Source: a virus. Taken from it: a stretch of DNA of 26,152 bases. The notes beneath the pieces are model-generated. The model saw only the letters and a list, made by a program, of their open reading frames with translations. It was not told where the DNA came from and made no database searches. This document shows, in pieces, positions 5,032 to 23,566 of the stretch (position 1 is the first letter of the stretch; every line of letters begins with the position of its first letter). Where the stretch lies: positions 1-26,152 of the IMG/VR virus record IMGVR_UViG_3300025695_000087. The stretch is one strand, 5' to 3'. The position numbers and the translations under genes were made by a program.

Positions 5032-6096
5032 TTAGTTTAGAAGTATTAGAGCACCAGTAACAACAACATTTCCAGTAGCAGCAATAGATATGGTAGTGCC
5101 TGCTGTTTGAGTTATAGCAGAACCTGCTGTTTGAGATATATTAGTGCTTGCTGTTTGAGTTATAGCAGCACCAGCATTTTGAGTTATAGAAGCACCTGCT
5201 GTTTGATCTATAGCACCGCCAGCAGTAATACTTGCGAGACTACCCGCAGAGAATAAAATAGCATCTGTTGCTTTTACAGAAGCACCGCCAATAAGAGTGT
5301 TGACACTATAAGAATTATCTCTCGCTTTGATTAGTGGAGGTGTCCCTGGTTTTCCAGCAATGACAGTTTGCGATACACCACCAACCCATTGCTTATAATC
5401 ACCAAGGATAGACCAATTAACGTGTCCAGGAGAAACAATGTTTTGTGATGCTCTAGGATCAAATTGTACAGATGTTTCTTCACCAGCACCAAATGTCATC
5501 TTCTGACCAAAGACAATATCTTTTTTGTTGTCTACAACTTGCTCAATAGTGCCAGCACTCATTTGGATAGTGCCACCACCATTAGATCCTGCCTGAATGA
5601 ATACTTGTGATTTTCCAATCAAAAATAATTCTTCTTCAGCAGTAATAATAATTTTCTGTGCCTTGATATGCCTTTCGCTACCAGTAGCTTCTTCTACAAT
5701 ATCCCCATATGCAATAATGTTTAATGCTTCTTCGCCATCATCACCACAATTATATTCAATGTGAGTTACTTGCTCGTGTTTTTGTTGCTGTCCATGAGTG
5801 TGTATACACAATTTTCCACTAGAAGCACCCTTTTCTACATTTTTTTCTCCCGTAACAATGACGATAGATCCATTATTTTGGAGTGCTAAAAACCCAGCAG
5901 TGCCATCAGGACCATCTATTCTCAGTGTTGATGTCTGACCATCAGGATACATACGTTCATAGATCTGTGAACGAGTCAACACACCTTTCCAGCATGTTGT
6001 AAACACAGGACCATCTTTTAGACTCTGTGTTTTATCTGCCGTGGTTTGTGGAAAGATACCTGTGGGGTATTCGTTAGCGGGTACAGCGTGTGACAT
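5032..6096 (-). CDS. gp5 C-terminal-like needle protein with octad repeats
   Basis: The ATG at 6096 overlaps the stop of the gp5-like gene (TAATG) and gives 354 residues; the longer frame would need TTG. The N-terminus (PANEYPTGIFPQTT) and middle are beta-rich. The last ~60 residues are consecutive octads such as SITQNAGA, AITQTAST, NISQTAGS, AITQTAGT, ending NVVVTGALILLN. Octad repeats form the trimeric beta-helix needle of T4 gp5 and VgrG spikes, so this is probably the membrane-piercing needle, encoded separately from the OB-fold hub domain upstream. Exact T4 gene correspondence is uncertain. Confidence 0.68.
   Translation of the reverse strand: MSHAVPANEYPTGIFPQTTADKTQSLKDGPVFTTCWKGVLTRSQIYERMYPDGQTSTLRIDGPDGTAGFLALQNNGSIVIVTGEKNVEKGASSGKLCIHTHGQQQKHEQVTHIEYNCGDDGEEALNIIAYGDIVEEATGSERHIKAQKIIITAEEELFLIGKSQVFIQAGSNGGGTIQMSAGTIEQVVDNKKDIVFGQKMTFGAGEETSVQFDPRASQNIVSPGHVNWSILGDYKQWVGGVSQTVIAGKPGTPPLIKARDNSYSVNTLIGGASVKATDAILFSAGSLASITAGGAIDQTAGASITQNAGAAITQTASTNISQTAGSAITQTAGTTISIAATGNVVVTGALILLN
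5101..5220. repeat. five 24-bp tandem units inside the needle gene
   Basis: On the plus strand, units beginning TGCTGTTTGA recur at 5101, 5125, 5149 and 5197, with a diverged copy (AGCATTTTGA) at 5173. The 24-bp period encodes one octapeptide per unit. The repeat could grow or shrink by slippage, changing needle length. Confidence 0.85.
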
Positions 6097-8927
6097 TATG
6101 GACAATCAATATAACGACCAGTTCCGATCTTAGTAGATCCAACTGTAGTGAGTGCTTCAGTATCTAGGCATCTAAAAGATGGTAATAGTTTAGCACCATA
6201 TCCACCTCCACCAACGATAACAATCTCAGGGAATTTTTCAAATGTTAATTGCCTATCTAAAATTCTAGCGCCAACGACAAATCCATCTTCATTGATAACT
6301 GCTTCCGCAACACCAAGTTCACCATTTATATACATATCAGGTTCTGATGTGTATCCAATTCCGGGGCGGATTATAGTAAATGCATCAATGATACAACGAA
6401 CACCAGATTCATTAGCAAGATTTAATTTATATCCGTATCCAGGTGCTTTAATACGAATTTCTGTGATAAATCCATCTTGATCTAGTAAAGGAGTTGCTAC
6501 AGCACCAATTCCTTCACCACCAATCCAGACATATGGTGGTTCTGCCCAAGGATCTCCTGGTTGAGTGATGGGTATTTCAATAATTCCGCCATTATCATCT
6601 GTAATAATAGTTTCAGGAATAACTTCAGGAACAATAAATTCGTCTGTAGTTGTTCCTGGAGTATCACCCTCACCATCATCTTCTGGTGGTTCAGTACTAA
6701 TCTCTTCTGTAAGTGGCACCACCAGCACATCTGTAGTAGCACCAGTTCCATTCACAGTGAATATAAGCAACTCTTCTTCTTCATCTAAAGAATCTTCAGA
6801 AATTCCAACTATTACTTCAGCAGTATTATTATTGACAACAAAAGAACCTGTTGTTTTTCCACCAATAATATCACCAGAGTCAATATCCCCTGTTAATGTA
6901 TAATATGCATATGTACCATTCTCTACGTTTTCTGTAGTGATTGTATATTGTACAAAATCGCCTTCATTAACAGATACTTTGTCAGCAACTACTTCATATG
7001 AAGGTGTAGTATCAGAAGATGGAGTATCATCAGAAGGTGGAGTAGGAATATCTTCTACTACTTCAGGTGGGAAAACATCTGGTATTTCTGGAGTTGGATT
7101 TATTGGTATAGGATAATATGGAGTTCCTGGTTCTCTTATATTACGTTCTGTGATTACACACCTACCAACATTTTTTATAAACGTAGATCTAATTCGACTA
7201 CCTTCACCAGGAGAATTTTTCTTCAGAATAACAAAAAAGTCTTCATCACCTTCGTTTTCTGATGAATGGAAAGTTTTAATAGTAATACTTTTTACAGTTT
7301 CTCCTGGAGCAAATCCAAGAATACCACTATCAGACAAGTAATCTTCATCTGGAGTAGCAGTTCCTTTTCTAGATGTTCTATAAGACACAGATGAAGCAGA
7401 TTCAGTAACTCCAGTTCTAGTTACCTGGAATACAGCATCAAATCCCTCCTCTACAATAATATCAGATATCGTATAAACAATTTTTGGTGTTTTTGTTGGT
7501 TTATCACTGTAACGAGGAACTCCACCAGTAAACCCAACTGTTGTAATAGATAATGGTTTTCCAGTATAAGCATCTTCACAGGTATACTGATTAAAGTCAG
7601 CTCCTGTAGCAGGGAATAAATTATCAATGTTGGAAAGAAGATCATCTAGGAAATCATTTCCTTTTTTGTCATCTTTATCTTTTTTCTCACCATCTGTACA
7701 AATTTGTTTGTATCCGGCACATTCATTATTAGGTCCAGAGCAAGAAATACCAAGTAATTTTAAGACGAAATTAATTGCTCCACCTAAAATATTAAGTGGT
7801 CCGGCAATAGCACCAAGAATATCCTGAATAGGTCCAAGGATACTGCTGAGTATAGTCTCCATCAATGAATTAATCTTTGATAGAATACCATTTACTAGTG
7901 TGTCTACTTGACATGCTGCAGCACGATAAACCTGATTAACTAGACCCATTAAAACGTTCGTCAACCATCCTGCCAAACGATCTCCAAGATCTGCCATTTT
8001 ACACCCAAGATCTTTAAGCAGATTATTGAACCATTCTGTAACTGGAGTAAGGGCATTTCCAGTTTCATTTGGATACAATACTGCTTTAATTAGATCCTTA
8101 ACAGCATTAGTAAGTTTCTCAAGCACAAAACCTTTTACCTTTGCGATAAAATGCCTGATTACAGCCATAAACTTATTGACATACTTTCTTGCTATGCCAA
8201 TACCACTATTAATTGTTCCACTGATAGGACTGATCAAATACGTGCCAATGTTTCCATCATTTTTCTGAACTTCATTTAAAAATTCACCAAGTAAAATTTT
8301 GGTTTTGTCAGTTAAATTTTGTTTGTCGCATTTTTCTGCTACAGATTGACACCATTTTTCATCATCCCGACCCCTCAGCATTCTTGGAGGTATTGGGACT
8401 GTATCATCACCAGTTGGCAAAGCACCAGTGGTTTTGTTTGTTTCTCCTTCTCCACCTTCCCGATTTTCTGGTGCTGGTTGTCCGTCTGTAACAGGATTTA
8501 CTGGATTATCAACTGTATTATTGACTGTTCCAAAAGCTGTGCTCTCACCAGGTCTCTCACTCTTAGAGATAGTTGTAGCACCAGGAGTTTGTCCAATAGA
8601 ACCCATAATAATGGGTTTCTGCTTTAAGTGATCTAAGTAAAAACCAACAACCCAACACCCCTTAATAAGTTGTGGATGTGCTCCACCAACATTACCAGGC
8701 ATGAAGGGCACATTGACTGGCATCATCACATTTGCCCATGGCAAGTCTGACGTATCAAGGATCTCCTTACTTTGAGGATGATCACCTACGATACGAACCT
8801 TAAAACGGTATCCGCCTTTATTGTTTTTTTCTTCTGCGGCAGTTTGTTCGACTTGACCCACCCACCAATTGAACCCATCGGATCCGATGCGCTGAGTTGG
8901 GATCAACTGTGATAATAGTTGGTCCAT
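6096..8927 (-). CDS. gp5-like baseplate hub protein with Calx-beta domains
   Basis: This 943-residue protein has an N-terminal OB-fold region (about residues 20-116; FNWWVGQVEQ, YRFKVRIVGDHP, GCWVVGFYLDHLKQKPIIMG) as in T4 gp5/VgrG hubs. Residues ~209-396 are strongly amphipathic helical. A Calx-beta domain lies at ~479-575 (VEEGFDAVFQVTRTG ... GTATPDEDY ... ENEGDEDFFVIL), a second, more diverged one at ~640-740 (VNEGDFVQYTITTE), and a Gly-rich beta region at ~795-935 with GYGYK, GIGYTSEP and GGGGYGAKL. The T4 lysozyme domain is absent. It is coupled by TAATG to the needle gene. Extra beta domains may decorate the tail tip or contact host surface. Confidence 0.8.
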   Translation of the reverse strand: MDQLLSQLIPTQRIGSDGFNWWVGQVEQTAAEEKNNKGGYRFKVRIVGDHPQSKEILDTSDLPWANVMMPVNVPFMPGNVGGAHPQLIKGCWVVGFYLDHLKQKPIIMGSIGQTPGATTISKSERPGESTAFGTVNNTVDNPVNPVTDGQPAPENREGGEGETNKTTGALPTGDDTVPIPPRMLRGRDDEKWCQSVAEKCDKQNLTDKTKILLGEFLNEVQKNDGNIGTYLISPISGTINSGIGIARKYVNKFMAVIRHFIAKVKGFVLEKLTNAVKDLIKAVLYPNETGNALTPVTEWFNNLLKDLGCKMADLGDRLAGWLTNVLMGLVNQVYRAAACQVDTLVNGILSKINSLMETILSSILGPIQDILGAIAGPLNILGGAINFVLKLLGISCSGPNNECAGYKQICTDGEKKDKDDKKGNDFLDDLLSNIDNLFPATGADFNQYTCEDAYTGKPLSITTVGFTGGVPRYSDKPTKTPKIVYTISDIIVEEGFDAVFQVTRTGVTESASSVSYRTSRKGTATPDEDYLSDSGILGFAPGETVKSITIKTFHSSENEGDEDFFVILKKNSPGEGSRIRSTFIKNVGRCVITERNIREPGTPYYPIPINPTPEIPDVFPPEVVEDIPTPPSDDTPSSDTTPSYEVVADKVSVNEGDFVQYTITTENVENGTYAYYTLTGDIDSGDIIGGKTTGSFVVNNNTAEVIVGISEDSLDEEEELLIFTVNGTGATTDVLVVPLTEEISTEPPEDDGEGDTPGTTTDEFIVPEVIPETIITDDNGGIIEIPITQPGDPWAEPPYVWIGGEGIGAVATPLLDQDGFITEIRIKAPGYGYKLNLANESGVRCIIDAFTIIRPGIGYTSEPDMYINGELGVAEAVINEDGFVVGARILDRQLTFEKFPEIVIVGGGGYGAKLLPSFRCLDTEALTTVGSTKIGTGRYIDCP

Positions 8928-14200: not shown

Positions 14201-14270
14201 GACTTTTTTAAGCAAAAATGAGCAGGAAAAATTTTCCCACTTTCATGGAATTGAAAAATCAATTTTGCTA
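14201..14270. repeat. 70-nt imperfect repeat, copy A
   Basis: Plus-strand sequence begins GACTTTTTTAAGCAAAAA, contains AGCAGGAAAAATTTTCC (a near-palindrome), then TTGAAAAA and ATTTTG, and ends in the gp54 stop codon. It matches 17904-17973 along its whole length, roughly three quarters identical by eye, in the same orientation. The two copies flank the gp54/gp4-gp53 segment. Confidence 0.75.
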
Positions 14271-14972
14271 TGCTACGTCGCCATTAGCTCCTCTTAAATC
14301 TGCCAAACCAGTCTGTCTTTGTGCCTCTGATAAAATAGACCTTCCAGTAATGGTTTTAAATTCTTGTACTAATGGTTTTCCTGTTACCGCAGTAATATCT
14401 CTATTAATAGTGTAGTGTCTCTGATATTTAAACTGAGCAGTAACTTTAGTAATTTGAGAAGATCCAAACTGAAGTGGGATAGCATCAACGGCATATGGAT
14501 ATGCCTTCTCCATAACATATGTGATTGGTTTTCTTTGTGTTGGTGAATTTGGACCAGATTCAGTTTTAGTAATTTTTATAGTGCTAGCATAATCATCTTT
14601 ATATGCTAGTCTAGTCGATCGATTTTCAAGATAAGTTCCACTTTCAATAAAACCAGTTTCATTAAAAATAGATCCATACCACAAATTCAAAGATTTCAAA
14701 AGATTCAAATTAGCATCCAACATAAAAGAAAGTTGAAATTCAGTAAAGACCCTGGTATGGGGATAATCTACAGATCCCAATCCAACATAAAGACCATTTT
14801 GTGTCCCAGTAGCAGTATTTACATTTGGTAATTGTGCTTCATCACAGAAAAATTCAACTTCCTCTGAATTAAAATATGCCGCAGCAGGTCCTTCAAAACT
14901 AACCACAAAGTTATTACTAAATGACATACCGCCATTTTTTGCAACTGTGCTTAAGAATCTATTGATTGACAC
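14268..14972 (-). CDS. tail-tube-fold baseplate protein, gp54-like
   Basis: 234 residues from a GTG at 14972 (MSINRFLSTVAKNGGMSFSN), with AGG about 8 nt upstream and a late promoter at 15004-14998. The sequence FFCDEAQLPNVNTATGTQNG, then SVDYPHTRVFTEFQLSFMLD and NLWYGSIFN follows the tail tube/gp54 pattern (acidic-aromatic strand, PxxN turn, fixed Y/F strand). In T4, gp54 starts tube polymerisation on the hub. It lies head-to-head with gp4, only 31 nt apart. It could instead be a gp19 paralogue; a tube fold is more certain than the gene number. Confidence 0.68.
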   Translation of the reverse strand: MSINRFLSTVAKNGGMSFSNNFVVSFEGPAAAYFNSEEVEFFCDEAQLPNVNTATGTQNGLYVGLGSVDYPHTRVFTEFQLSFMLDANLNLLKSLNLWYGSIFNETGFIESGTYLENRSTRLAYKDDYASTIKITKTESGPNSPTQRKPITYVMEKAYPYAVDAIPLQFGSSQITKVTAQFKYQRHYTINRDITAVTGKPLVQEFKTITGRSILSEAQRQTGLADLRGANGDVA

Positions 14973-17973: not shown

Positions 17974-18156
17974 GCAAGAAGGTATTGCTATTTTTGGATT
18001 CTTTTTCAATACTCTGTAAGCATGACCATGCACATCTGTTTCTAAAGTAAGGTGTGCTTTAGTATGAACGACCTGAATCACCAACAGAAACCCAACAAAC
18101 GAAAGGTTTAGATAAGTCACTGGATGATTCAGTCCTTTCCAGAGAAACTTAATCAC
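17947..18156 (-). CDS. possible small membrane protein (69 aa)
   Basis: A GTG at 18156 overlaps the gp32 stop (GTGA) and opens a 69-residue frame with one hydrophobic segment, YLNLSFVGFLLVIQVV (residues ~15-30), then a basic C-terminal part (HAYRVLKKNPKIAIPSCYKM). The AGGAG in the gp32 end touches the GTG, which is too close to be ideal. The last ~9 codons come from repeat copy B. It may be a gp32-coupled membrane peptide, or chance. Confidence 0.45.
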   Translation of the reverse strand: MIKFLWKGLNHPVTYLNLSFVGFLLVIQVVHTKAHLTLETDVHGHAYRVLKKNPKIAIPSCYKMGFSKR

Positions 18157-19076
18157 TCCTCAGCAAGACGTGCGAAGTAAGACAGTGCATCGTCATCCTC
18201 AACGATTGCTTCTTCCTTGACAGGAGAGGGAGCATTCATCTGCTGACGGAACGATGACTGAGGGGTGATGTCAGGGTCGTTGAACCCACCAGTAGCAGCG
18301 ACTGGTTCGTACTCTTCGCTGTCTACTGTAGGAACAGCAGTGCGTTGAGTGATACCAAGCACCATATTCAGACGCTTCTCAAGGTCAGCATATGATTTGA
18401 ACTGATCCTTGTGAGTGAATGCTTCAAGGGAATTCTCTTGCTTCCAGATTGCTTCTAGTTGATCATCATCAGCTGACAGAGCAGAGACATTATCAAACTC
18501 AGAACTATCGTAGTTCCAGTATCCTGCGACCTTCTTGATCTTCAGTTTGAAGTTAGCACCTTCCCAAAGATCAAAGACATTTACAGGTGTCTCGTCTTGG
18601 AACTCAGGTTGCATAGCAGCGAGGATCTTGTCGTGAATCTTCTTGCCATACTTATAGAGGAAGACTTTGCCTTCGTTCTCAGGGTGCTTAGGATCCTTCA
18701 CAACATAGATGTTGCTATAGTATTGAAGCTTACGCTTCTGCTTACGAGCAGTCTCTTTGTCTTCATCAGCACCGCTATTCCAGAGACGGCGGTTTACTTC
18801 ACCAACAGGATCGTTTTCGTTGAGTGTAGTCAAAGAGTTTTCAATATACCAACCACCAATACCTTGGAAGGCGTGGGAGTATAGTTTTGCCCAAGGGAGA
18901 GTCTCTCCATCAGGGGCAGGGAGGAAACGGATAACAGCGTATCCATTTCCAGAAGCGTCAACCTCTGGTTTCCAGAAACGTTCATCAACGTTCTTACCGC
19001 TGGATGATTTCTCTAATTCCTTTTGTAGGAAGTCAAAGTTTGTCTGGGATTTACGCTTAAGGTCTGAAAAAGACAT
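18153..19076 (-). CDS. 32: gp32 single-stranded DNA-binding protein
   Basis: 307 residues with T4 gp32 architecture: basic N-terminal segment (MSFSDLKRKSQTNFDFLQKE), OB-fold core (FWKPEVDASGNGYAVIRFLP; LYSHAFQGIGGWYIENSLTT; LYKYGKKIHDKI; FDLWEGANFKLKIKKVAGYW), and an acidic C-terminal tail (EEAIVEDDDALSYFARLAEE) that recruits replication proteins. I find no cysteine in the protein, so the zinc site of T4 gp32 (H64, C77, C87, C90) is missing although the His remains. It coats ssDNA in replication and repair. It has a perfect sigma70 promoter and a G-free leader suited to autoregulation. Confidence 0.93.
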   Translation of the reverse strand: MSFSDLKRKSQTNFDFLQKELEKSSSGKNVDERFWKPEVDASGNGYAVIRFLPAPDGETLPWAKLYSHAFQGIGGWYIENSLTTLNENDPVGEVNRRLWNSGADEDKETARKQKRKLQYYSNIYVVKDPKHPENEGKVFLYKYGKKIHDKILAAMQPEFQDETPVNVFDLWEGANFKLKIKKVAGYWNYDSSEFDNVSALSADDDQLEAIWKQENSLEAFTHKDQFKSYADLEKRLNMVLGITQRTAVPTVDSEEYEPVAATGGFNDPDITPQSSFRQQMNAPSPVKEEAIVEDDDALSYFARLAEE

Positions 19077-19774: not shown

Positions 19775-20441
19775 GTTGTTCTTGATACTCCGAGATATAA
19801 CTCATTAGTTTCATAAAGAATTCTTTCTTAGGTGGAAGCACCTTAACTTGAGTCTCTCCGTTTTCACAAGCAACAATAGTTACGAGTTGTTTGACACTCA
19901 ACCCATAGTTTTCTTGTAGCATACATGCGTATGCAGTTTCTTGAACGAAGTAATCGTAAAGATATTTCTCACGCTTTGGTTCAGCAGCAGTCTTGAAGTC
20001 AATGATAGACAACACACCGTCAAACTCAGCGATACAATCTACTCGCCCTGCAATCTCTAAATGTTTAGAGTAGAGCGCCGCTTCTTGTAAGTAAATATTA
20101 TTTATACGGTCCAAATCAGGGCGACTATGATGGAACATTAGTACAGGAAGTGGATGCGATTTATACTTCTTCAGGTCTAGATCATTATTAAAGTAGTCTT
20201 CAGCAATAGAGTGATACTTTGTGCCACGACCAGTAGCACGAGTTGTCTTAGCATTTGCTGCCTTCTCGCCAACACGAGCTCGCCACTTAGCAATGCCTGC
20301 TTTCTTTGCTGCGTTGTTGCCAATCACAGTGGTGACAGATGGATAGTGATGTCCTGTTGGTGTAAGATAAACACGTTTGCCCCCCACCATTTCAGCAGAC
20401 ATTTCAATAGGATCTAGTCCCACATGATTGAACAGTTTCAT
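19746..20441 (-). CDS. PD-(D/E)XK exonuclease (MGME1/RecB-like)
   Basis: 231 residues with a Cas4/RecB-type nuclease core: GRGTKYHSIAEDYF (conserved His), EIAGRVDCIAEFDG (Asp), LSIIDFKTA (Asp-x-Lys), and YDYFVQETAYACM (Gln-x-x-x-Tyr, motif of RecB/MGME1 nucleases). The N-terminus includes TPTGHHYPSVTTVIG, found in phage exonucleases of this type. It likely processes single-stranded DNA ends in recombination or replication. Coupled with phoH upstream (ATGA overlap) and gp33 downstream. Confidence 0.87.
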   Translation of the reverse strand: MKLFNHVGLDPIEMSAEMVGGKRVYLTPTGHHYPSVTTVIGNNAAKKAGIAKWRARVGEKAANAKTTRATGRGTKYHSIAEDYFNNDLDLKKYKSHPLPVLMFHHSRPDLDRINNIYLQEAALYSKHLEIAGRVDCIAEFDGVLSIIDFKTAAEPKREKYLYDYFVQETAYACMLQENYGLSVKQLVTIVACENGETQVKVLPPKKEFFMKLMSYISEYQEQHGQETIIRG

Positions 20442-21190
20442 AGACCTAGATTAATTTTGTTGATGATGTAAGATTTGACGAGACCAGAGCGAACGATATC
20501 ATCCACACCAAACTCAACCAGTGAGAACTCATCCATGTTTTGTAGGATGCGTTGGAAGTCTAGGATACCTGAACGTTCAGAGATCTTTTGAAGGTCAGTT
20601 TGTGCTGCGTCTCCACAGAAAATGATCTTACTGTCTTGTCCCACACGAGTGATGATTGAATCAAGTTCGTGGAAGTTTAGGTTCTGACACTCATCAATGA
20701 TAACGATAGCATTGTCTAGTGTAGTGCCACGTATGAAACTAGTAGACCAGAAGGAGATAGTTTCCTGTGCCTTCAGGTTATCATAGAGCATTTCATATGA
20801 TGCATCGTCAGGCATCTCAAACATGGATTGAACCATGTTCTTATATGGTATCTGATAGAGAGAAGACTTATCCTCATGGTCTCCAGGAAGGAAACCAATC
20901 TCCCTAGTAGCGACAAGAGAGCGAACAATATAGATCTTTTCAAAAGGTGTATACTCATTGAGTACATCCTTAAGTGCTTTATAAAGAGCAACATAAGTTT
21001 TACCAGTTCCTGCTACACCATAGGCATAGATCATCTTACCTTTGTCCCACTCATCAAACATGATTTGTTGATTGTGAGTAAGAGGTTCGACTGGAACCAT
21101 GTATGCTTCATCAATGGGTTTACGACGCTTCCTCTGCTTCGCATTCATACCTTGTCCAGGTGCTTTAGTAGTCTTCTTTCTAGCTGGCAT
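20438..21190 (-). CDS. phoH: PhoH-like P-loop ATPase
   Basis: 250 residues from the ATG at 21190 (MPARKKTTKAPGQGMNAKQR); the longer frame overlaps the upstream gene. The basic N-terminus is followed by the PhoH ATPase domain: LTHNQQIMFDEWDKGKMIYA, Walker A GVAGTGKT, YIVRSLV, Walker B AIVIIDECQN, TRVGQDSKIIFCGDAAQTDL sensor segment, and C-terminal VEFGVDDIVRS. phoH is widespread in marine phages; the bacterial homologue belongs to the phosphate regulon, but the phage role is unclear and may involve RNA. No Pho box is evident upstream. Confidence 0.93.
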   Translation of the reverse strand: MPARKKTTKAPGQGMNAKQRKRRKPIDEAYMVPVEPLTHNQQIMFDEWDKGKMIYAYGVAGTGKTYVALYKALKDVLNEYTPFEKIYIVRSLVATREIGFLPGDHEDKSSLYQIPYKNMVQSMFEMPDDASYEMLYDNLKAQETISFWSTSFIRGTTLDNAIVIIDECQNLNFHELDSIITRVGQDSKIIFCGDAAQTDLQKISERSGILDFQRILQNMDEFSLVEFGVDDIVRSGLVKSYIINKINLGL

Positions 21191-21191
21191 G

Positions 21192-21455
21192 TCAGTTATA
21201 CTTTTGTGTGATGGTTCTGTTTCTTGGTGCCTTAGGAGCAATCTTATTCTTCATTATATCATGAAAACCAGGATGTGTTCTACTCATCTTGTCTCTCCAG
21301 TCACCTACTTCACCAGAGGCAGGGCATGTAGATGGATCACTCCAATCTCTATCCCATTCTGGATTGTCATCTTTCCACTGACTCCACTCATGAACACTAA
21401 GTCTTACTTCTTTTTGTTCACCAGTTTCTTTGTTAATCACTGGGTAAGTCGCCAT
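21192..21455 (-). CDS. hypothetical protein (87 aa), MATYPV type
   Basis: Strong ribosome site (AAGGAGGGAGACG) before the ATG at 21455. The product starts MATYPVINKETGEQKEVRLS, continues VHEWSQWKDDNPEWDRDWSD and has one cysteine (STCPASGEVGDW). The start resembles the FmdB-like zinc-ribbon beginning but the CxxC pairs are missing. Similar small proteins are common in cyanophages. Stop is one base before the phoH ATG. Confidence 0.72.
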   Translation of the reverse strand: MATYPVINKETGEQKEVRLSVHEWSQWKDDNPEWDRDWSDPSTCPASGEVGDWRDKMSRTHPGFHDIMKNKIAPKAPRNRTITQKYN

Positions 21456-21663
21456 CGTCTCCCTCCTTTACTTTATTAAATCCAAATGGACCTGCTCCCT
21501 TTTCTTCGAGTGCTAGCTTCAGTGCAACACCACCAATTGCTTCCATAACTTTAATGACTTGCTCAGGTTTGGCATCCTCACCAAGTTCTTTGGCAACGTA
21601 CCAATACTTAGGCCAAAATGTTTGACCTGCTAATTCATAATCTTCTAACGTTAATAGTTTCAT
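21433..21663 (-). CDS. hypothetical protein (76 aa)
   Basis: ATG at 21663 overlaps the thyX stop (ATGA), preferred over a GTG at 21669. Sequence MKLLTLEDYELAGQTFWPKY then WYVAKELGEDAKPEQVIKVM, then a Gly-rich C-terminus ending DDGDLPSD. Helical and acidic at the end. It overlaps the next gene by 23 nt. No family is recognised. Confidence 0.65.
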   Translation of the reverse strand: MKLLTLEDYELAGQTFWPKYWYVAKELGEDAKPEQVIKVMEAIGGVALKLALEEKGAGPFGFNKVKEGDDGDLPSD

Positions 21664-22310
21664 GACCACTCCAGTGCTTCAGCACAAATAGGTAATTCTT
21701 TTACAAATACATCGCGACATTGTTGAGCGATATCCATGTGTTCTTTCTGTGTTCCATGAGCAGAACGCAGATCGATATAATGCATCCATGATCGAACTGA
21801 TCCGCTCATGTAAATTTTGGTGGGAATTGCTAAAGGAAGCACAAAACGCGAACATTCCTTTGCAATCCCTACAGAAAGCATATGCTGATATAGATCCATA
21901 GCAGAATCAAAGTGACGCTCGATAGCAATCTCAAGTTCCTGCTTAACAAAAGGATCTACATCATCAATACTATTCTGACGGTTCTTTGTATCTTGACGAC
22001 GCAAATTAGGTAGAGGAATCTTATCAGTCAACATAGAACTATCAGCATACCGCTGAGAAAACTCTTGGAATGTGAACGATCTATGCCTCAGGATCTGAGC
22101 TGCGATTCCCCGATTAGTTTCAATCTCCAGTGTCATGAACGCTTGTTCAAATACAGACCAGTGATTGTGCTTGATACAATAACTAAGGAGTCCCGATACT
22201 TTCGGGTTGTCCTGGTTGTTCGGGTTGCTCACCCTCGCTACGTACCCCATCATCTTCTCCGCTTCTGGGGTGATAGAAACTAGACGGACTGACCCATGTT
22301 GTTGCTTCAT
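21660..22310 (-). CDS. thyX: ThyX flavin-dependent thymidylate synthase
   Basis: 216 residues with the diagnostic ThyX motif RHRSFTFQEFSQRY (RHR-x7-S), N-terminal VRLVSITPEAEKMMGYVARV, a KHNHWSVFEQAFMTLEIETN substrate region, and C-terminal MSGSVRSWMHYIDLRSAHGT containing the conserved Arg/His active-site cluster. It makes dTMP from dUMP with NADPH and FAD without generating dihydrofolate, feeding phage DNA synthesis. AAAGGA precedes the ATG at 22310. Its first ~128 nt overlap the end of the upstream gene in another frame. Confidence 0.95.
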   Translation of the reverse strand: MKQQHGSVRLVSITPEAEKMMGYVARVSNPNNQDNPKVSGLLSYCIKHNHWSVFEQAFMTLEIETNRGIAAQILRHRSFTFQEFSQRYADSSMLTDKIPLPNLRRQDTKNRQNSIDDVDPFVKQELEIAIERHFDSAMDLYQHMLSVGIAKECSRFVLPLAIPTKIYMSGSVRSWMHYIDLRSAHGTQKEHMDIAQQCRDVFVKELPICAEALEWS

Positions 22311-23101: not shown

Positions 23102-23269
23102 TCACTTACTGTAGGTACGACCACGATAACAGAATGTGCCGTGGGGTTCCTTTAATTCGACACAACGTGTAGTATACTCAACACCACGGTATGAAGTGTG
23201 TGTAATCTGTGCGTCGTGAAGGGCAGATGCTTTGTTGATCTGCTTCTTGATCATGTTTAGTGTGTTCAT
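23102..23269 (-). CDS. DUF4278-like small protein (55 aa)
   Basis: ATG at 23269 with AGGAG about 8 nt upstream. The 55-residue product has HTSYRGVEYTTRC and a second half-repeat GTFCYRGRTYSK, the doubled YRG-x-x-Y signature of DUF4278, a family confined largely to cyanobacteria and their phages. Function unknown. It follows the riboswitch-controlled peptide gene and shares its transcript unless the intergenic hairpin terminates it. Confidence 0.72.
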   Translation of the reverse strand: MNTLNMIKKQINKASALHDAQITHTSYRGVEYTTRCVELKEPHGTFCYRGRTYSK

Positions 23270-23280
23270 TTGTCAGTCTC

Positions 23281-23314
23281 CTGAAGTTAGGGTTTTTAAT
23301 CCCCGTTCCTTCAG
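23281..23314 (-). promoter_or_regulatory. intercistronic hairpin before DUF4278 gene
   Basis: CTGAAG (23314-23309) pairs with CTTCAG (23286-23281); an inner GGG/CCC pair encloses an A-rich loop. The left arm includes the stop codon of the 53-residue gene and the right arm touches the AGGAG of the next gene. It may govern RNA processing or coupling; no T run follows, so it is not a terminator. Confidence 0.45.
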
Positions 23315-23472
23315 TCGTGTGCGTCCCAGATACACTCAGGGGTAGATTCCTTTACGGTCTCTATCAACTCTACCTTAAAAGCATCAGAGATTTTCTCGTT
23401 TGCTTTCATCTTAAGCATGATTGTATCAGCTTGTTGGCAGGTGAGTGATGAATAGAATAATAGTTCTAACAT
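23311..23472 (-). CDS. 53-aa peptide controlled by a glutamine riboswitch-like leader
   Basis: The product begins MLELLFYSSLTCQQADTIML, continues KMKANEKISDAFKVELIETV and ends KESTPECIWDAHD. The frame upstream is closed by a stop, fixing the ATG at 23472; GGAG is 11 nt upstream. The gene sits directly behind an aptamer of the glutamine/Downstream-peptide type, which is known for preceding short conserved ORFs in cyanobacteria and marine phages. In cyanobacteria glutamine riboswitches control glutamine synthetase inactivating factors, so a role in host nitrogen metabolism is a reasonable guess, not a demonstrated one. No sequence motif of those inactivating factors is evident. Confidence 0.75.
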   Translation of the reverse strand: MLELLFYSSLTCQQADTIMLKMKANEKISDAFKVELIETVKESTPECIWDAHD

Positions 23473-23477
23473 GGGAT

Positions 23478-23530
23478 GAACGGCTCCGTTCCGCGACTTA
23501 CTTGCGTCCCACCCAAGAGTGGGATGAACG
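23478..23530 (-). promoter_or_regulatory. glutamine (Downstream-peptide type) riboswitch-like leader
   Basis: Read on the minus strand: P1 CGTTC (23530-23526) with GAACG (23491-23487); P2 TCCCAC (23524-23519) with GTGGGA (23512-23507); then CGCAAGTAAGT, close to the CGGAAGTAAG core of glnA/Downstream-peptide RNAs. GAACG runs straight into the Shine-Dalgarno GGAG. A second CGTTCATCCCA copy lies at 23482-23472; its CGTTC can pair with the same GAACG to form a hairpin holding the GAGC of the ribosome site in its loop. Ligand-bound P1 would free it, giving an ON switch. The family match is from memory of the motif. Confidence 0.72.
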
Positions 23531-23566
23531 TATGGTAATTATACCATACTTTATTTATGGCGGCAA
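23530..23566 (-). promoter_or_regulatory. sigma70 promoter overlapped by an 8-bp inverted repeat
   Basis: TTGCCG (23566-23561), 17-nt spacer, TATAAT (23543-23538). The -10 and start region lie within the inverted repeat GTATGGTA-N4-TACCATAC (23530-23549), a perfect 8-bp operator-like element. A late element ATAAATA (23558-23552) sits in the spacer. The palindrome could bind a dimeric repressor; none is identified. Confidence 0.75.

Follow-up and report, generated by a model that had tools for sequence, protein, structure and literature searches.

Two small genes follow a promoter on the minus strand of a 26,152-nucleotide stretch of viral DNA (the window), and the short leader ahead of the first of them carries a duplicated motif; the question raised by this locus is what RNA the leader belongs to, where that RNA ends and which of the two genes it would control. 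The window has a T4-like cyanophage context, with four tRNAs, a gp5-type protein with a Calx-beta domain, a tail tube protein, gp32, PhoH and ThyX (features at 1-520, 1343-1503, 6096-8927, 14268-14972, 18153-19076, 20438-21241 and 21660-22310). An earlier note had described positions 23470-23566 as a glutamine riboswitch-like ON switch for a 53-aa peptide, an interpretation that is supported in part: the family, the phage-borne nature and the pairing of the second repeat copy held, but P1, extent, target and direction were contradicted or not supported. The motifs on which it drew are all present where it had placed them on the minus strand, with CGTTC at 23530-23526, a P2 hairpin at 23524-23507, CGCAAGTAAGT from 23506 and GGAACG at 23492-23487; a second CGTTCATCCCA begins at 23482 and reaches into the ATG at 23472. 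When a 391-base stretch was compared with Rfam, Glutamine-II (27.2 bits, E 8e-5) and Glutamine (26.0 bits, E 0.0015) were the two best matches, in keeping with the proposed family, but both fell under the curators' cut-offs of 33 and 35 bits; E for the Glutamine match was 2.4e-5 with the whole record searched. These sub-cut-off matches are well clear of chance. The local fold of the leader was not better than shuffles (z -1.0), so its significance rests on family resemblance and conservation.

Judged from the sequences of its relatives, the leader by itself is half an aptamer. Relatives were collected by a pattern scan of viral contigs, followed by the reading of about 110 distinct ones. In these the second copy of CGTTCATCCC forms the 5' arm of a second hairpin, which is closed immediately in many phages (CGTTCATCCC-TTCG-GGGACGCAAACGACTGAAGGAACG); in other phages, including that of the window, the closing arm comes 137-244 nt further on, with a small ORF in between. 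The closing arm of the window, TGGGACGCACACGACTGAAGGAACG (23328-23304), contains the stop of this ORF at 23311, the ORF start being at 23472. In relatives without an ORF the glnA model RF01739 matched a single aptamer bounded by the first CGTTC and the last GAACG, over both copies and including the aptamer end GAAGGAACG; against a threshold of at least 35 bits these relatives scored 39.6-43.6 bits (L007, 43.6; L020, 39.6; Synechococcus phage ACG-2014f, 41.1) and the half in the window 26.0 bits. L020 closely resembles the window minus its gene, with identity at 106 of the 113 positions compared (all outside the gene) and a few nucleotides replacing the ORF. We consider it likely that the window element is a glutamine-I riboswitch with a circularly ordered second junction (P1b and P2b) added to its P3 arm and the 53-aa gene in the P2b loop, and that it is an ON-switch for the DUF4278-like gene downstream.

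Every strand of the P1-P2-P3 three-way junction, with the core CG[C/G]AAGTA and GAAGGAACG, is present on the minus strand of the window. The 5' strand of the outer P1 (CGTTC, 23526-23530) pairs across the nested gene with GAACG at 23308-23304; it is followed by the P2a hairpin (23507-23524), which covaries at 5/5 pairs in ORF-less relatives, and by the core strand CGCAAGTA (J2/3, 23499-23506), as placed by the RF01739 and RF01704 alignments. The 5' strand of P3 (AGTCG, 23494-23498) pairs with CGACT at 23313-23317, a 3' strand assigned by P3 covariation. The P3 arm bears the extra hairpin P1b (GAACG-GAGC-CGTTC, 23478-23491) and the second P2 hairpin, P2b, whose 5' strand TCCCA (23472-23476) ends on the A of the start codon and covaries across the ORF with TGGGA (23324-23328), giving in the window 5 bp around a loop of ~150 nt. 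The aptamer end GAAGGAACG (23304-23312) supplies J3/1 and the 3' strand of the outer P1 (23308-23304). The aptamer thus does not end 5' of the start codon, as had been supposed; its 3' half is found where the 53-aa gene ends, and the interval first proposed was too short, since the element runs on through that gene to about 23278.

The junction helices P2a, P3, P1b and P2b are backed by covariation. Over outer P1, P2a, P3, P1b and P2b, 49 ORF-less relatives had 138 double-changed cells compared with 36 in shuffles, and a whole-structure covariation score of 0.330 compared with 0.098. In all classes together, P3 was paired in 154 of 185 cells (137 +/- 2.6 shuffled), a value reached in 0 of 5000 shuffles; an A-C mismatch at its third pair is conserved in many relatives. 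Two large groups (the AGCCGAC and GGACGG types) have a conserved C-A or A-C in place of U-A at this position, which may be a protonated A-C pair or a feature involved in binding. Covariation of the P2 stems persists when an ORF separates their arms, clearly for P2b (282 paired cells versus 262 +/- 5; maximum of 2000 shuffles 279) and more weakly for P2a (143 versus 134 +/- 3.4; maximum of 2000 shuffles 146). The fourth pair of P2b may be C-G, U-A, U-G or A-U, and that of P2a U-A, A-U, C-G or G-U; several P2a stems are of 6-8 bp and include the start codon (for example UCUUAUG/CAUAAGA in S-TIM5 and S-CAM1). The architecture, and with it the nesting and coding status of the gene and the expression platform, can be regarded as demonstrated at the level of sequence and covariation.

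The outer P1 is invariant in the pattern-selected set and has no covariation of its own: this first set of relatives was gathered mostly by motif patterns that fixed the P1 letters, so that P1 pairs were unable to vary in it, and class frequencies among relatives found in this way are biased. A protein-based search added loci free of the motif-pattern bias, and in these one clade had CAACG instead of the inner GAACG. A new scan, allowing A, C or T at the first base of the inner GAACG and any base at its partner, found C together with G (CAACG/CGTTG) in 56/56 distinct sequences, which form a related clade and so represent few independent events. The outer strands were still CGTTC and GAACG in the 42 of these sequences in which both were identified, such that the outer P1 remains constant while the inner hairpin changes, and the first CGTTC is still complementary to the GAACG that follows the gene. 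No change at the next inner pair was found in a second variant scan in which any change was allowed.

This clade supports the inner hairpin P1b and, as far as the sequences of one lineage can tell, contradicts both the P1 first proposed and a tandem arrangement. The pairing of copy 2 with the adjoining GAACG, part of the earlier note, is borne out by the compensatory change, as a conserved inner hairpin and not as one of two mutually exclusive folds. A stand-alone ON-switch confined to the leader, in which P1 is formed by the first CGTTC and the near GAACG and glutamine frees the ribosome site of the 53-aa peptide, can draw on the fact that these sequences exist and that both Rfam models match the leader, albeit below cut-off; we regard it as extremely unlikely, given that the near GAACG pairs with copy 2, with compensation in 56/56 variants that breaks the P1 in question, that the 3' P3 strand and the J3/1 GAA both lie 3' of the ORF and so outside the leader, and that the full element is kept before the DUF4278-like gene in ORF-less relatives. 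Its topology was rejected on the evidence of the CAACG/CGTTG clade. Scarcely more credible are two ordinary tandem aptamers (each CGTTCA-P2-core-GGAACG), one per gene, with the second split by the ORF. Tandem glutamine riboswitches are common, with 157 doublets described (PMC9481103); they have two core-motif copies, as here, and CGTTCA, ACGCA and GGAACG are common to both copies of the element. In such a doublet both aptamers would be complete and each would have a P1 of its own, but the window-type copies interlock through a shared P3 that joins copy 1 to copy 2, the full glnA signature occurs only in the outer junction, and Rfam fits a single aptamer over both copies. Moreover, the CAACG/CGTTG clade would break both tandem P1 helices and keeps both nested ones; with the P1 strands pairing first-with-last and inner-with-inner, the tandem topology was rejected.

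The gene nested within the two-junction glutamine-I element (23311-23472, minus strand) encodes 53 amino acids with two conserved cysteines and a hydrophobic N-terminus, and is matched over residues 1-53 of 53 by the phrog_504 profile (E 5e-27). AlphaFold gave a modest two-to-three-helix model (pLDDT 78, pTM 0.55). ORFs in relatives are of 49-69 aa and have the hydrophobic start and two cysteines in common. With the aptamer codons excluded, median dN/dS was 0.38 for P2b ORFs and 0.20-0.31 for two families of P2a ORFs, values that indicate purifying selection on the nested genes. The GGAG in the P1b loop of the window (23487-23484), 5' of the nested gene, is likely to be its Shine-Dalgarno sequence: this loop carries GGAG in 50 of 71 loci with a P2b ORF as opposed to 2 of 123 without (p 7e-27), so that the inner hairpin doubles as a ribosome site. 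At its other end the gene runs into the aptamer, the C-terminal WDAHD and the stop TGA (23313-23311) lying inside the 3' half. As their last codons are dictated by the aptamer, P2b ORFs belonging to different families terminate in DAND or DAHD, and they nearly always stop at a UGA or UAA abutting AGGAACG, about 41 nt 5' of the next start codon and over the CUGAAG strand. Chance, or protein coding of the WDAND ending, was rejected as the origin of the 3' half, as the RNA motif persists without a coding reason in ORF-less hairpins and in P2a protein copies. The ORFs of L133 (in P2a) and L070 (in P2b) are identical at 52 of 59 amino acids, with the DAND ending solely in the P2b copy; the same gene can therefore occupy either loop, and the shift between loops probably occurred via recombination between the repeats.

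The expression platform (23278-23314, minus strand) consists of CTGAAG (23314-23309), which can pair with CTTCAG (23286-23281) over the Shine-Dalgarno sequence AGGAG (23282-23278). This hairpin folds with a z of -3.0 versus shuffles; the CUGAAG/CUUCAG pairing is perfect in 109 of 156 leaders versus 88.7 +/- 2.9 shuffled, and relatives with CUAAAG carry CUUUAG or CUUUGG in place of CUUCAG. The masked fold was calculated, without ligand or tertiary contacts, to be 6.4 kcal/mol more stable than the aptamer fold, as expected of an ON-switch that requires its ligand. The gene that it would mask (23102-23269, minus strand; phrog_545) encodes a DUF4278-like protein of 55 amino acids with two YRG motifs, which matched PF14105 at 21.4 bits (E 3e-4; cut-off 25.3), one relative being above the cut-off at 29.3 bits. 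The known glutamine riboswitches of cyanobacteria act mainly on DUF4278 genes (PMC6316151), and a gene for a small YRG-motif protein lies directly 3' of the element in nearly all relatives. It is thus more likely that the window element controls the DUF4278-like gene than the 53-aa peptide gene previously taken as its target. Between aptamer end and Shine-Dalgarno sequence, six relatives (L006, L031, L077, L108, L116 and L296) have an extra hairpin, CGGATCC...GAGAAGG. Single glutamine-I aptamers in L065, L013, L238, L118 and other viral contigs have a GGAAA/TTTCC platform around ATGGAGTTTCCAATG and precede other YRG proteins.

Upstream, a sigma70-like promoter (23538-23566, minus strand) has TTGCCG at 23566-23561 and TATAAT at 23543-23538, with a 17-nt spacer, and transcription presumably starts just 5' of CGTTC; of 194 related loci, 180 have a -10-like box 5-10 nt 5' of this motif. 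The box sits within a perfect inverted repeat, TATGGTA-TAAT-TACCATA (23531-23548), found at the same place in related loci. Its arms vary between phages with self-complementarity kept, and arms of at least 6 occur in 56% of 180 loci compared with 3% in shuffles; the repeat may be an operator, a cruciform or an RNA hairpin. A manA RNA (RF01745; 184 and 142 bits) was also observed near the nested riboswitch (L388, 176-361, and L301, 1178-1372; phages P-SSM4 and P-TIM40).

In line with the phage-borne nature claimed previously, BLAST recovered similar sequences from 440 phage records, almost all of them cyanophages. An anchor pattern gave 204 distinct loci, two of them chance matches, with the ORF in P2b in 71, in P2a in 32 and absent in 89, counts shaped by the patterns used in the search. 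An ORF is also present in P2 of L281, a locus with a single aptamer. The element was present in 18/18 named phage isolates examined, from many cyanophage genera, and 15 of these have nested genes, the exceptions being S-PM2, ACG-2014f and S-CAM7. S-TIM5, S-CAM1 and P-SSM4 have a gene in each loop and the remaining gene-bearing isolates one in P2b; the nested gene is unannotated in ACG-2014j and P-SSM2. When 84,980 bacterial and archaeal genomes were scanned, 8 contigs were returned, two without the element and only six with the dual form, one of which matches phage P-TIM40 in sequence; from this distribution the dual-form element appears to be phage-borne.

Cyanophage and tandem glutamine riboswitches were already known (PMC9964418, PMC9602691, PMC9481103, PMC2864571). 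The window element shares with glutamine-I (glnA RNA, RF01739; cyanobacterial and phage) CGTTCA, P2, the core CG[C/G]AAGTA, P3, GAAGGAACG and a DUF4278-type target, ahead of which the leader lies, in keeping with the usual place of RF01739 in leaders of nitrogen-linked genes, mostly DUF4278; it differs in the hairpins P1b and P2b added to P3 and in the protein gene within P2a or P2b. Single-aptamer phage copies of glutamine-I score 46-49 bits. With glutamine-II (Downstream-peptide, RF01704) it has in common a CGCA core, GGAACG soon after and a small ORF following. Its 27.2 bits are below the 33 bits required for RF01704, with relative L114 at 39.3; P3 and GAAGGAACG are of the glnA type, and the glutamine-II P1, from CGUUC to GGAACG in the following hairpin loop, is contradicted in this family by the CAACG/CGTTG clade. 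Group I introns hold homing-endonuclease genes in their loops and likewise present a protein gene in the loop of a structured RNA, but here the RNA is a ligand-sensing regulatory leader and not a ribozyme, and the ORF encodes a small protein of 49-69 aa. The riboswitch of phage Melnitz, reported at the ssrA gene, is likewise phage-encoded, but no nested gene is described there (PMC9004378). In the open-access literature we found no report of a gene within a riboswitch aptamer or loop, or of two junctions sharing a P3.

From family membership we infer that the element binds glutamine and that it is an ON-switch, and we further infer competition between the two genes. The glutamine pocket would be made by the outer P1, P2a and P3, of which P1 and P3 span the nested gene. 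Glutamine would keep CUGAAGGAACG within the aptamer, so that the Shine-Dalgarno sequence of the DUF4278-like gene is not masked and this gene is switched on. Translation of the nested gene would use the P1b-loop GGAG, with the AUG beside or in the P2b stem; ribosomes on this gene would open P2b, P3 and P1, and its translation should therefore compete with aptamer folding. As the P2b stem that closes the loop of the gene extends just into the start codon, translation of the 53-aa peptide should fall with glutamine, the reverse of the direction first proposed.

We tentatively suggest, as a possibility that falls somewhat short of probable, a two-gene toggle in which the glutamine-bound RNA gives the DUF4278-like protein and translation of the nested gene gives the small cysteine protein, ligand sensing and translation being exclusive and the gene mobile between P2 loops by recombination. 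The loops of self-splicing introns tolerate insertions, and the nested gene could instead be passive cargo in insertion-tolerant P2 loops, with no regulatory exchange; different ORF families, the use of both loops and the many loci without any ORF fit with this, but the start codon is always beside or within the P2 stem, the P1b loop holds a Shine-Dalgarno sequence and the stop is built into the aptamer, which together suggest otherwise, and we think passive cargo rather unlikely. Translational coupling, in which a ribosome halted at the UGA within the aptamer end keeps the masking hairpin from forming, so that the DUF4278-like gene is on regardless of glutamine, would make use of the P2b stops, almost always against AGGAACG, about 41 nt before the next start and on the CUGAAG strand. 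P2a ORFs, however, terminate at a distance from the platform, and in 89 loci there is no ORF at all, such that coupling is not needed for the switch; we judge it unlikely, and a little more so than passive cargo.

By the usual description, riboswitches are untranslated leaders. In common marine cyanophages (P-SSM2, P-SSM4, Syn1, S-SM2, S-TIM5 and others) the aptamer contains a whole protein gene, and sometimes two, an arrangement overlooked in part since some nested genes lack annotation and a covariance model is unable to span the inserted gene; it suggests that other split riboswitches are being missed. The nested arrangement would offer a natural system for testing ribosome versus ligand competition on one RNA, and the element may connect infection by the phage with the glutamine of its host by way of a DUF4278-type protein.
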